Source: a virus. From it: 64,000 nucleotides of DNA. The notes beneath the pieces were generated by a model. It was not told the origin of the DNA and searched no databases. It saw only the letters and a list, made by a program, of their open reading frames with translations. Position numbers and translations under genes: made by a program. Shown piece after piece: positions 16,125 to 22,297 of the stretch; within the stretch, counting starts at the first letter, position 1, and every line of letters begins with the position of its first letter. The stretch lies in IMG/VR virus record IMGVR_UViG_3300023184_000026, positions 62,001 through 126,000 of that record. The stretch is one strand, 5' to 3'.

Positions 16125-16586
16125 ATGAAACTCGCAACATATATTATATTATTATTGGCACCATTCTGTCATGTTTATGGCAGTGATATGGTGCATAGTT
16201 TCAAGAGTTCTTCTTTCAACGGAGCTAACTTTTCTGCATCTGCGATGACAATTGAAAACTTGGCACGCACTCGTAAACAAACAATAAAAGATATTGCAGC
16301 ATCAAAGGCTGAACAAGCAACAGCACAGGCCCAAAACACACCGTTAAACACGTTTATAAACAATTTGCAGGCAAGAATATACTCACAGCTGGCTTCGCAA
16401 GTTACAGACCAGATATTCAATTCTGGTGGAGCAACATTTGGTATAATAAATCTTCAAGGTGGAGCAACTGTTACATGGCAACGCAATGGCGATTTTGCTA
16501 CACTTTTTATAAACGACCCAGCAAGCGGAAGCACAACTCAAATAACCGTTCCAGTCGGTTCATTGACACCGATACCATCAGGATGA
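16125..16586 (+). CDS. csgF: CsgF-like curli assembly factor
   Basis: The 153-residue product has a signal peptide (MKLATYIILLLAPFCHVYGS). The mature N-terminus DMVHSFKSSSFNGANF matches the CsgF start, where an aromatic/Asn-rich peptide plugs into the CsgG pore. Further on, a helix (LNTFINNLQARIYSQLASQV) is followed by strands ending FATLFINDPASGSTTQI, again as in CsgF (138 residues in E. coli). In curli systems CsgF sits at the outer face of the CsgG channel and couples export to fibre nucleation. It overlaps csgG by ATGA. Confidence 0.85.
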   Translation: MKLATYIILLLAPFCHVYGSDMVHSFKSSSFNGANFSASAMTIENLARTRKQTIKDIAASKAEQATAQAQNTPLNTFINNLQARIYSQLASQVTDQIFNSGGATFGIINLQGGATVTWQRNGDFATLFINDPASGSTTQITVPVGSLTPIPSG

Positions 16587-17386
16587 AGAAATATGTTATT
16601 TTTGTTCTTTCATTGTTATTGTTGAGTGGCTGCGGTTCTATTCCTCGCAATCCAGCAATCCTCGACGTTCCAAGAACTCAAACTTCTCCCATGGAGAATG
16701 AATTGTTGTCCATTCCACCCGTTGACGGTCCAAGAATAACCATAGGTGTGTATGGATTTGCAGATAAAACAGGAGCAAGAAAAACCGCAGATAATTATGC
16801 ATCATTTTCTTCCGCCGTGACACAGGGTGCAGAAAGTTGGCTCATTGATGCTTTACGACAATCTGGTCGCGGAGCATGGTTTCAAGTATTAGAACGTGCG
16901 AGTTTGGATAATATAATCAAAGAACGACAACTCATTTCACAAACCAGAGAAACATTCCAAGGAAAAAATTCCGAAAAACTAACACCGATGTTATTTGCAG
17001 GTATTCTTGCCGAAGGTGGAATTATTGGATATGATAGCAACATTTTGACTGGTGGCGCAGGTGCCAGTATATTGGGCATATCAGCAAATACTCAATATCG
17101 CAAAGACGTAGTCACAGTATCATTGCGGTTGGTGAGTGTGCATACGGGAGAAATACTTTTGAGCACTGCCGTAACAAAAACAATTTCCAGTGTAGCAGTG
17201 TCGGGAAACTTATTCAAATTCTATGAACATGGAACATTGTCAATAGAATCTGAATTGGGACTGACCGCAAACGAACCCAATACAATTGCGGTCCGCAGTG
17301 CAATAGAAAAAGCCGTGATAGATATCATTTATCAAGGTGAAAAAATGAACCTCTGGAAGTTCAAGAAACAAAACACAACACCATGA
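16583..17386 (+). CDS. csgG: CsgG-like outer-membrane curli secretion lipoprotein
   Basis: I place the start at 16583 (ATGA overlap), giving 267 residues with a lipoprotein signal ending LLLSGC, the lipobox. The mature protein contains ITIGVYGFADKTGARK, then WLIDALRQSG and FQVLERASLDNIIKERQL, the classic CsgG core, and VVTVSLRLVSVHTGEILLS plus AVRSAIEKAVIDII near the end. CsgG forms the nonameric outer-membrane pore for curlin subunits. All main landmarks are present and the size matches E. coli CsgG (277). It is followed by a curlin-like gene with ATGA overlap. Confidence 0.93.
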   Translation: MKKYVIFVLSLLLLSGCGSIPRNPAILDVPRTQTSPMENELLSIPPVDGPRITIGVYGFADKTGARKTADNYASFSSAVTQGAESWLIDALRQSGRGAWFQVLERASLDNIIKERQLISQTRETFQGKNSEKLTPMLFAGILAEGGIIGYDSNILTGGAGASILGISANTQYRKDVVTVSLRLVSVHTGEILLSTAVTKTISSVAVSGNLFKFYEHGTLSIESELGLTANEPNTIAVRSAIEKAVIDIIYQGEKMNLWKFKKQNTTP

Positions 17387-18243
17387 AAATAATAAACATA
17401 ATAAAGTTTACAATAATCACAGCAGTCTTTGGACTTGCTTCGGCCATATATTCCCAAACGCCAGGTGCTCTTGGTGCAATCGCGGGAAACTCGTCTGGCA
17501 ATCAAATATATGTGAATCAAATCACAACCGGAGGAGACACCACGTTCATACAAAATGGAGCATCCAATAGAATTGGATCTTTTGCTCTTCCAAGCAATAT
17601 TACCGGAGATAACATCTTCATGGAATGGAGACAAATTGGAAACTCAAATAGTACTGATTTCTCTATTACAGGAGCCAACACTACGAAATTGTTGTCTGCC
17701 TTTGCGGGAAACAGCAATGAACAGAGAGTTTATTTCAACGGAGCCAATAACAACATGAATTTCAAATTTGATGGTAACACCAACAGACTTTGGATAAATA
17801 ATGATGTTACTGTGTATCGTGACGGTGGAGAAAATACCGCAACAGACAAAGCAACATTGGCAAGTTCTGATTTACAAATTAAATTTGCAGGCAATAATAA
17901 CTTGTTTGCTTATGCCACAACAAACGGTCTCAATAACTATTTGAAGTATGATGTTACTGGTAATACCAACACTATTAAATCTACACAAATTGGCAGTGCT
18001 GGTACCGGAACTCGTCAATCGGGTCACTATCAAGATGTTACCATTCTCGGCGGAGCAAATGATGTTATGATATATCAACAAGGCACCGTTCAACAATACT
18101 TCCAATACAGTCTTATTGGTAGCAATAACACTGTACGTGTTTCACAAACAGCAACTGCCGCTCCAACATTCACAATCAACAACACCAATCAGCTGGCTCC
18201 TCAAGGTCCGGGCAGCGCAACAACCGTCATAGGCAATCCATAA
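17383..18243 (+). CDS. Curlin-like repeat protein (CsgA/CsgB type subunit)
   Basis: The 286-residue protein has a signal peptide (about residues 1-24, ending AIYSQ). The mature part is rich in Gly, Asn, Gln, Ser and Thr with degenerate repeats of the form GN-x-N-x(4)-Q/I-x-G-x-x-N (for example NQIYVNQITTGGDTTFIQNG and GDNIFMEWRQIGNSNS). These resemble curlin repeats, which stack into an amyloid beta-helix. Position directly after csgF and csgG supports its being the exported subunit. It is longer and less regular than E. coli CsgA (151 residues), so nucleator and fibre roles may be merged. Confidence 0.8.
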   Translation: MKIINIIKFTIITAVFGLASAIYSQTPGALGAIAGNSSGNQIYVNQITTGGDTTFIQNGASNRIGSFALPSNITGDNIFMEWRQIGNSNSTDFSITGANTTKLLSAFAGNSNEQRVYFNGANNNMNFKFDGNTNRLWINNDVTVYRDGGENTATDKATLASSDLQIKFAGNNNLFAYATTNGLNNYLKYDVTGNTNTIKSTQIGSAGTGTRQSGHYQDVTILGGANDVMIYQQGTVQQYFQYSLIGSNNTVRVSQTATAAPTFTINNTNQLAPQGPGSATTVIGNP

Positions 18244-21205: not shown

Positions 21206-22005
21206 TAAGCGATATGCTATATATTGGAGATACACAAATAATTTTAAACATGAGAAAAATAACAAACGGTGAAGCCGTGGAAAGAATATCAAAAAAACAT
21301 CCACATTTGGATTGCTCGCAGGTTAAATACAATGGAGCATTTGAAAAAATTGTGGTGAGATGTACTATTCACGATCACACATTTGAAACTCCATACAAAT
21401 ACATTGTTAGTAAGCGAAGCAAGACCGGTTGTATATATTGCCAACGAGACTCTTACAGATTAAATAACGAAACCGTCATTTTCCGTTTCATAAAGACACA
21501 TGGTAAAAAATATGATTACAATAAAGTGCAATATAAAAGTAATTTGAAAAAAGTTGAAATAGTATGTCCAAAACATGGAAGTTTCATGCAGGAACCAGCA
21601 AACCATTGGAACGGACACGGGTGCATGCGATGTGCTGTGGAGAATGGTCGTCACGGAGTTGGTGGATACACCGAAGAAACTCTGAAAGAAAGCAATGAAA
21701 CTGGCGTCGTGTATGTGCTGAAAATAAAAGACTGCAAAATTTACTACAAAATAGGAATATCAAAATTTGGCGGAGACAAAAGAATAAAAGACATATCTTA
21801 TTCCGATAAAGCCGAAGTTTTATATGAGTCAAAAAGAATATTGCTAAAAGACGCATTCAGAATTGAACAAGAAATGCTATCTCAGCATAACCGATATAGG
21901 CATTCCCATAAGAAAATATCCGGATGGACGGAGATAATAGACGAACGACCAAATATCAAATTGTTAGAAAAAAAGATAAACTCCATAAACTATGCAACTA
22001 TTTGA
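21202..22005 (+). CDS. Homing-endonuclease-like protein (DUF723-type zinc repeats plus GIY-YIG/T5orf172-like domain)
   Basis: The 267-residue ORF overlaps the cyclase fragments at both ends. The first half has Cys/His units (VVRCTIHDHTFETP...GCIYC and VEIVCPKHGSFMQEP...GHGCMRC) like DUF723 repeats in homing nucleases. The second half starts GVVYVLKIKDCKIYYKIGIS, matching the GIY-YIG-related T5orf172/MUG113 core, with Arg and Glu residues further on. Such nucleases cut DNA to promote their own spread. An internal ATG at 21250 is an alternative start. No room remains for a group I intron core, so it appears to be a direct insertion. Confidence 0.75.
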   Translation: MISDMLYIGDTQIILNMRKITNGEAVERISKKHPHLDCSQVKYNGAFEKIVVRCTIHDHTFETPYKYIVSKRSKTGCIYCQRDSYRLNNETVIFRFIKTHGKKYDYNKVQYKSNLKKVEIVCPKHGSFMQEPANHWNGHGCMRCAVENGRHGVGGYTEETLKESNETGVVYVLKIKDCKIYYKIGISKFGGDKRIKDISYSDKAEVLYESKRILLKDAFRIEQEMLSQHNRYRHSHKKISGWTEIIDERPNIKLLEKKINSINYATI

Positions 22006-22297
22006 ACTTGATTGTATCGCCGTCAAAGGTAAAAAAGATGGCGCGAGAATTTATACCGTTCTTGAAAATAAATTGAGTGAAAACCAATATAACACAGTTG
22101 TATCTGGTCATTTTGCTTTTCTAAATGATTACAGAATGCAAAGATGGGATGGTGCAATATCTCATGCCAATGAACTCATGACGCAGAATAAAGAAATGAA
22201 GAAGTATTATGAAATGATGATTGAAAGAATATTGGAACTTCGTAACAGCAATCTTGACAAAGATTGGGACGGAGTTTTTAGAGCAACCTCCAAGTAA
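21992..22297 (+). CDS. 3' part of the split CHASE2 adenylate cyclase
   Basis: This 101-residue ORF begins MQLFELDCIAVKGKKDGARI, which is the last beta-strand of a class III cyclase domain (usual form RELDxIxVKGKxxPVxIYEL). It continues with the helical tail common after CHASE2 cyclases, ending DKDWDGVFRATSK. These elements are just what the 591-residue protein at 19430 lacks. It overlaps the nuclease stop by 14 bases and may be made by reinitiation. The insertion point is near the end of the catalytic domain. Confidence 0.8.
   Translation: MQLFELDCIAVKGKKDGARIYTVLENKLSENQYNTVVSGHFAFLNDYRMQRWDGAISHANELMTQNKEMKKYYEMMIERILELRNSNLDKDWDGVFRATSK

Follow-up and report, generated by a model that had tools for sequence, protein, structure and literature searches.

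Curli genes carried by phages have been discussed since about 2020, with their function still unsettled. CsgF and CsgG were described in phages together with the idea of "sibling capture" (PMC7029224), and PMC9599517 reports CsgF, CsgG, CsgA/B, FecR, adenylate cyclase (AC), and histidine kinase, with CsgE lacking, and proposes superinfection defence, aggregation, or uptake. This type VIII secretion system (T8SS) module is known from pelagiphages (HTVC008M, pelagimyophages, and HTVC023P-type pelagipodophages; PMC7029224, PMC9599517), and a lysis role has been proposed for it in Methylophilales phage Melnitz (PMC9004378). Here, we examine such a module in a window of 64,000 nucleotides, bases 62001–126000 of the virus record IMGVR_UViG_3300023184_000026 (297,258 bases in all). 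Its five genes encode, in order, CsgF, CsgG, a curlin-like protein, FecR, and a CHASE2-AC, and are joined by ATGA overlaps, with a 2-base gap between the curlin-like and FecR genes; coordinates and domain searches bear out this run as it was initially annotated.

The five-gene unit is not new. The initial annotation took its combination with signalling genes to be unusual, but it is the standard phage arrangement: all five genes are present in 49 of 49 viral loci with >4.5 kb of DNA upstream of the AC, the proposed comparison of gene order gave csgF-csgG-curlin-fecR(-curlin)-AC in every one of these complete loci, and the same set is found in HTVC008M and Melnitz as well as in published descriptions (PMC7029224, PMC9599517, PMC9004378). 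Superinfection protection and cell aggregation, the roles first suggested, are likewise already published hypotheses. What is new here, and was missed at first, lies in the details: the cyclase gene is split, FecR possesses a curlin-like tail and a retention-like domain, and a gene for a cyclic-nucleotide-binding (CNBD) protein is linked to the module.

There is one curlin gene in 39 of the 49 complete loci, whereas the remaining 10 have a second between FecR and the AC. In three loci (L064, L067, and L068), csgF and csgG are separated by some 2 kb of additional sequence. Compared with the pelagiphage module, the window has the same genes in the same order and no CsgE, and its CsgF, CsgG, and AC are 32–48% identical to the HTVC008M proteins; unlike that module, the window run shows neither a second curlin nor a histidine kinase, the phage is T4-like with 297 kb, and the AC is split by an endonuclease. 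The CNBD protein has not been reported for the pelagiphage module, and its gene is not mentioned in PMC9599517. Melnitz resembles the window in its five gene types, their order, and a nearby transfer-messenger RNA (tmRNA) gene, but it carries a second curlin-like gene, its AC is uninterrupted, and its authors considered the fibre subunits to be absent (PMC9004378).

A T4-like polymerase gene lies upstream of the module, and T4-like terminase, portal, capsid, and tail sheath genes are found elsewhere in the record, the capsid being nearest to those of Microcystis phage Mel-JY01 and Flavobacterium phages. Because these core genes share its record, the curli/FecR/AC unit is phage-borne.

The curli export proteins are recognizable by their families. 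CsgG matches the NCBIfam CsgG model at 6e-49, which is under its equivalog cut-off, and has a weak lipobox match (LPAM_1, 0.0081) with a Cys after the signal. CsgE, already noted as missing from the visible genes, was found nowhere in the whole 297 kb record at E≤1. Of the domains for which searches had been suggested, CsgF, CsgG, FecR, and CHASE2 were all found, whereas the curlin was not, as the curlin-like protein has no family match in Pfam, PHROG, or NCBIfam. Nonetheless, in the bacterial curli loci analysed, a profile built from phage curlins recovers the curlin-type genes adjoining csgG (E 2e-17 to 7e-3), and it gives no match across 80 bacterial CHASE2-AC loci. The protein contains 11 G-x-x-N motifs against 4.2 expected from shuffles (p 0.002), and its AlphaFold model (pLDDT 75) has regular strand pairs every 20-odd residues. 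On the basis of the phage profile, the motif enrichment, and the predicted paired-strand repeat, we describe the product as curlin-like.

The cyclase is where this phage departs from its relatives. The N-terminal piece comprises the periplasmic CHASE2 domain, transmembrane helices, and the greater part of the class III cyclase domain, with the catalytic residues (the metal Asp pair, Lys/Asp for adenine, and Asn/Arg) conserved in the alignment. The complete catalytic domain is not on one chain: the range first annotated, to 22297, also covers two more open reading frames (ORFs), an endonuclease gene and, after it, the severed AC C-terminus with the last strands. PHROG 35576 spans both pieces, its positions 12–592 corresponding to the AC gene and 598–681 to the second ORF. 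Of 77 related viral loci, 73 have these parts continuous (0–40 bases apart), and none of the 77 has the endonuclease. In comparison with the closest relatives (95–96% identical), about 793 bases replace GCTA between GAAAAT and AAACTATG, close to where the catalytic domain ends; neither this junction nor a second copy of the endonuclease allele was found in the other viral contigs searched. The encoded enzyme combines DUF723 with a T5orf172/GIY-YIG-like domain, a type common in phages, and occurs as a single copy in the record. Judging by these alignments, the interruption is the insertion of a homing endonuclease gene into a gene that is intact in relatives. A group I intron was considered and rejected (no Rfam intron even at E≤5), as was an intein (the reading frame is full of stops).

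The C-terminal piece begins at a Met codon that already exists in the intact gene and is about 95% identical to relatives. It carries the last cyclase strands with the VKGK motif and a conserved WDGVxRATSK tail. Since the lysine at the VKGK position of class III cyclases contacts ATP phosphates, the C-terminal piece should be needed. Two further observations concern AC variation among these phages. The catalytic domain of the group formed by the window and L047 shares only 53% identity with its L050 counterpart, whereas identity over the N-terminal 425 residues reaches 94%, a pattern that by sequence comparison is a domain swap by recombination. In addition, Ser replaces the catalytic Asn of N-x-A-x-R in the ACs of L003, L073, L075, and L079, which may affect activity.

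FecR is composed of a signal peptide, a FecR/retention-like domain (residues ~20–200), a disordered linker, and C-terminal curlin-like strands (~345–394). Its AlphaFold model agrees with this layout, showing a confident FecR domain from about residue 20 behind an N-terminal signal-like helix, with no cytoplasmic domain ahead of it, then the disordered linker and C-terminal strand pairs at ~22-residue spacing. The glutamine at the extreme C-terminus (Gln394), in a strand resembling a curlin repeat, is kept in 30 of 30 aligned phage FecRs. When profiles were aligned, the tail scored 19–20 against the last curlin repeat, compared with a mean of 9.3 (standard deviation 1.8, maximum 15.0) in 200 column shuffles, and only the signal peptide gave a comparable score elsewhere in FecR. 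A profile of the tail matches 64 of the 69 FecRs from phages, whereas all 28 from bacteria, encoded near CHASE2-ACs, go unmatched.

The FecR domain itself has no significant sequence match in PDB. Its model resembles PupR (6ovk, E 5e-4) and also the domain by which the M. primoryensis adhesin is anchored at the cell surface (5ix9; TMt 0.72, 1.3 Å over 62 columns). A sequence link to the retention domains of RTX adhesins (M. primoryensis 5ix9, LapA) exists through the FecR domains of bacterial adhesins; the FecR of a Bradyrhizobium adhesin matches 5ix9 at E 1.7e-5. Retention domains fold internally, exceed the size of the export channel, and so anchor adhesins (PMC12077191). The phage FecR shares this fold by prediction, but unlike RTX adhesins, it is small, linked to curli rather than to type I secretion, and equipped with curlin-like strands instead of extender repeats.

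No cyclic-nucleotide-binding protein other than the CNBD protein is encoded in the record. Its binding cassette is intact, with Glu and Arg kept in five of five aligned members, and two hydrophobic stretches lie at its C-terminus. Relatives occur at 22 viral loci in two settings: in the lineage of the window, the gene lies 13.7–15.5 kb downstream of the AC and the protein is 81–99% conserved, and in L069, L046, L234, and L235, it directly adjoins csgF in divergent orientation. As these four cases could share ancestry, they are linkage and not proof of function. The module is visible on the same contig for 9 of the 22 loci, many others being on contigs too short to tell. Homologues of the tail were also seen in L232, L237, and L238, which are short contigs with no curli module in the fetched flank.

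Two assignments of the CNBD protein were rejected. It is not a CRP/FNR-type regulator, as only the CNBD was matched and the C-terminus is hydrophobic, with no helix-turn-helix. The occurrence of a class III cyclase and a hydrophobic-tailed CNBD protein in one genome also recalls Pycsar (PycC cyclase with CNBD effector), and generic matches to PycC/PycTIR models are found in the window phage. Unlike Pycsar, the AC of the window is a CHASE2 receptor cyclase whose gene belongs to the curli operon, the CNBD gene lies in a different operon at a distance of 14 kb, and there is no evidence of cCMP/cUMP or defence for the set; therefore, we do not assign it to Pycsar.

One might ask whether bacteria supplied the five genes as a unit. 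Among bacteria, the closest relatives of the AC come mostly from Alphaproteobacteria (28–37% identity), and FecR is directly upstream in 11 of 80 bacterial CHASE2-AC loci. The initial suggestion that the two form sensor pairs in bacteria thus holds; such pairs are widespread there and have been reported independently (PMC5498481, PMC9239204). As in the phage, the genes adjoin in such pairs (S. meliloti SMc02176/02177 and Campylobacterota clusters). The bacterial FecRs differ, as none of the 28 has the curlin-like tail; they are often large adhesins, as seen in Alphaproteobacteria, and include RTX, cadherin, and laminin-G proteins. In S. meliloti, CyaD1 deprived of CHASE2 produces cAMP constitutively, and a FecR gene lies nearby (PMC5498481). 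Bacterial csg operons show the kinship of CsgF, CsgG, and curlin (six alphaproteobacterial csg loci are recognized by the phage profiles), but the canonical operon is unlike the phage module in that CsgE is missing from the phage record. No csgF or csgG occurs within the fetched flanks of the 80 CHASE2-AC loci, no FecR or CHASE2-AC adjoins csgF in the six alphaproteobacterial loci, and any CsgG match at all is present in only 8 of 40 genomes with such CHASE2-ACs. A bacterial origin of the whole set as one operon was not found among these 80 and six loci; within the limits of this sample, our results agree with PMC9599517 that the union of csg genes with FecR/AC is apparently a phage feature.

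How might these parts work together? CsgG and CsgF would form an outer-membrane pore through which the infected cell exports the curlin-like fibre subunit by type VIII secretion. FecR would most likely act as a tether: its folded domain would be held in the periplasm, the disordered linker would thread the CsgG/CsgF pore, and the C-terminal curlin-like strands would join the fibre. The inner-membrane CHASE2-AC would then read the state of FecR or of the fibre from the periplasm and make cyclic AMP (cAMP), to be received in this lineage by the CNBD protein with its hydrophobic tail. Because a homing endonuclease has split its gene, the cyclase of this phage must either reassemble from two chains or be impaired. 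The identities of the genes, the conserved module, the split, the similarity of the FecR tail, and the CNBD gene with its linkage are shown here, whereas the fibre, its tethering, the sensing, and the cAMP circuit are inferred. FecR as a fibre anchor that is read by CHASE2 is the simplest joint reading, to which both the profile comparisons and the structural models lend support. For the full chain from FecR tether through AC to CNBD protein, which draws on the same comparisons and models, our confidence is tentative and falls somewhat short of even. An extension, in which CHASE2 senses tension or retention and cAMP opens or activates the CNBD protein as a phage membrane protein with a hydrophobic hairpin, so that a self-contained circuit reading the phage's own fibre would alter the infected cell (e.g., lysis timing or the response to a second phage), we consider improbable.

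Several points weigh against this chain. In absolute terms, the FecR tail matches curlin only weakly (HHalign probability 9%), the fold match of the FecR domain to 5ix9 has an E of 0.038, and the curlin model has no significant fold match in PDB. The hydrophobic stretches of the CNBD protein are moderate (maximum Kyte–Doolittle 1.69), and its gene is 14 kb from the AC in the window phage. The gene is also missing from HTVC008M, Melnitz, and several long contigs that bear the module, so the module can do without it. Signal perception in S. meliloti does not require the neighbouring FecR (PMC5498481), and for Melnitz, no clumping was observed and a lysis role was argued (PMC9004378).

The Melnitz work leads to a competing explanation, namely that no fibre is made and that the CsgGF pore, under the control of FecR/AC, has been repurposed: it would time lysis or serve uptake by acting as a gated secretin/pinholin or a solute channel. 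The lack of clumping and of CsgE in our record would suit this idea, and the CNBD hydrophobic tail could be a membrane effector. We still find it rather unlikely, as every one of the 49 complete loci encodes a curlin-like protein that resembles true bacterial curlins, a pore without a fibre would have no need of CsgF, which docks fibres outside the cell, and the argument from Melnitz rests on an absence of csgA/B that is contradicted by PMC9599517 and by the present analysis. A fibre might instead form an amyloid coat that excludes superinfecting phages or serves sibling capture, FecR/AC being only a generic iron or envelope regulator of host genes through host CRP. Such coats have been proposed (PMC7029224, PMC9599517), FecR is known for signalling, and CRP-like host proteins are common. 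The phage FecR, however, appears from its model to lack the transmembrane anti-sigma layout of a FecIRA-type regulator and has the curlin-like tail, and bacterial FecR beside CHASE2-AC is often part of an adhesin; on balance, we regard the coat with a generic regulator as unlikely.

The endonuclease insertion cuts the final strands, with the VKGK motif, off the cyclase, and among the viral contigs searched, one copy of the endonuclease allele is known; hence, the signalling arm may be dead in this phage and the remnant ORF decaying, a possibility that deserves to be taken seriously, though we doubt it. Both AC pieces are intact ORFs joined by overlaps, and the second retains its pre-existing ATG and its similarity to relatives. 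Phage genes split by inserted endonucleases can stay functional, which also counts against a dead arm. That the endonuclease allele occurs in one record only might even suggest an error of assembly, or that bacterial DNA was wrongly joined to phage DNA, as the initial annotation had warned. This is hardly credible, since the module recurs, flanked by phage DNA, in dozens of viral contigs and also in two phage isolates, and phage core genes lie in the same record.

Table 1. Features of the curli module and the linked CNBD gene (window coordinates; aa, amino acids)
Feature	Position	Strand	Evidence
csgF-like; secreted outer-membrane curli chaperone/neck protein	16125..16586	+	signal peptide; PF10614 2.8e-13, phrog_35372 9e-27
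csgG-like lipoprotein, outer-membrane curli export pore	16583..17386	+	PF03783 2.2e-50
Putative curlin-like fibre subunit (CsgA/B analogue)	17383..18243	+	signal peptide, repeated paired strands, G-x-x-N turns
FecR protein	18246..19433	+	PF04773 9.9e-10, signal peptide
CHASE2-AC, N-terminal 591 aa	19430..21205	+	PF05226 8.6e-42, PF00211 1.1e-18
Insertion of ~793 bp in place of GCTA	21194..21986	+	DNA alignment to L047/L004
Homing-type endonuclease, 267 aa, within AC gene	21202..22005	+	phrog_681 endonuclease 3.4e-37; PF05265, PF10544
Severed AC C-terminus	21992..22297	+	phrog_35576 positions 598–681
CNBD protein, candidate cAMP effector	35097..35753	+	PF00027 1.2e-16

Several other genes of the window stand out. 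A filamentous-haemagglutinin-type exoprotein with a TPS secretion domain (PF05860) is encoded at 31679–33652, and a tyrosinase-family gene (PF00264; 41407–42897) has a Tat-like N-terminus, which is unusual for a phage. At 23822–38280 and 45795–46185 lie 30 tRNA genes and also a tmRNA gene, which is of the one-piece kind and encodes an uncommon tag. An RNA repair set consists of an RlaP-like nucleotidyltransferase (39835–40548), a T4 Rnl1-like ligase (48641–49756), and a DRB0094-type RNA ligase (15020–16042).

For phage-encoded curli, the FecR tether and the linked CNBD gene give a specific testable chain, from fibre to FecR, CHASE2 cyclase, cAMP, and phage receptor, and the split cyclase offers a natural test of the need for the signalling arm. 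If the chain is true, this phage would monitor the outside of its infected cell.

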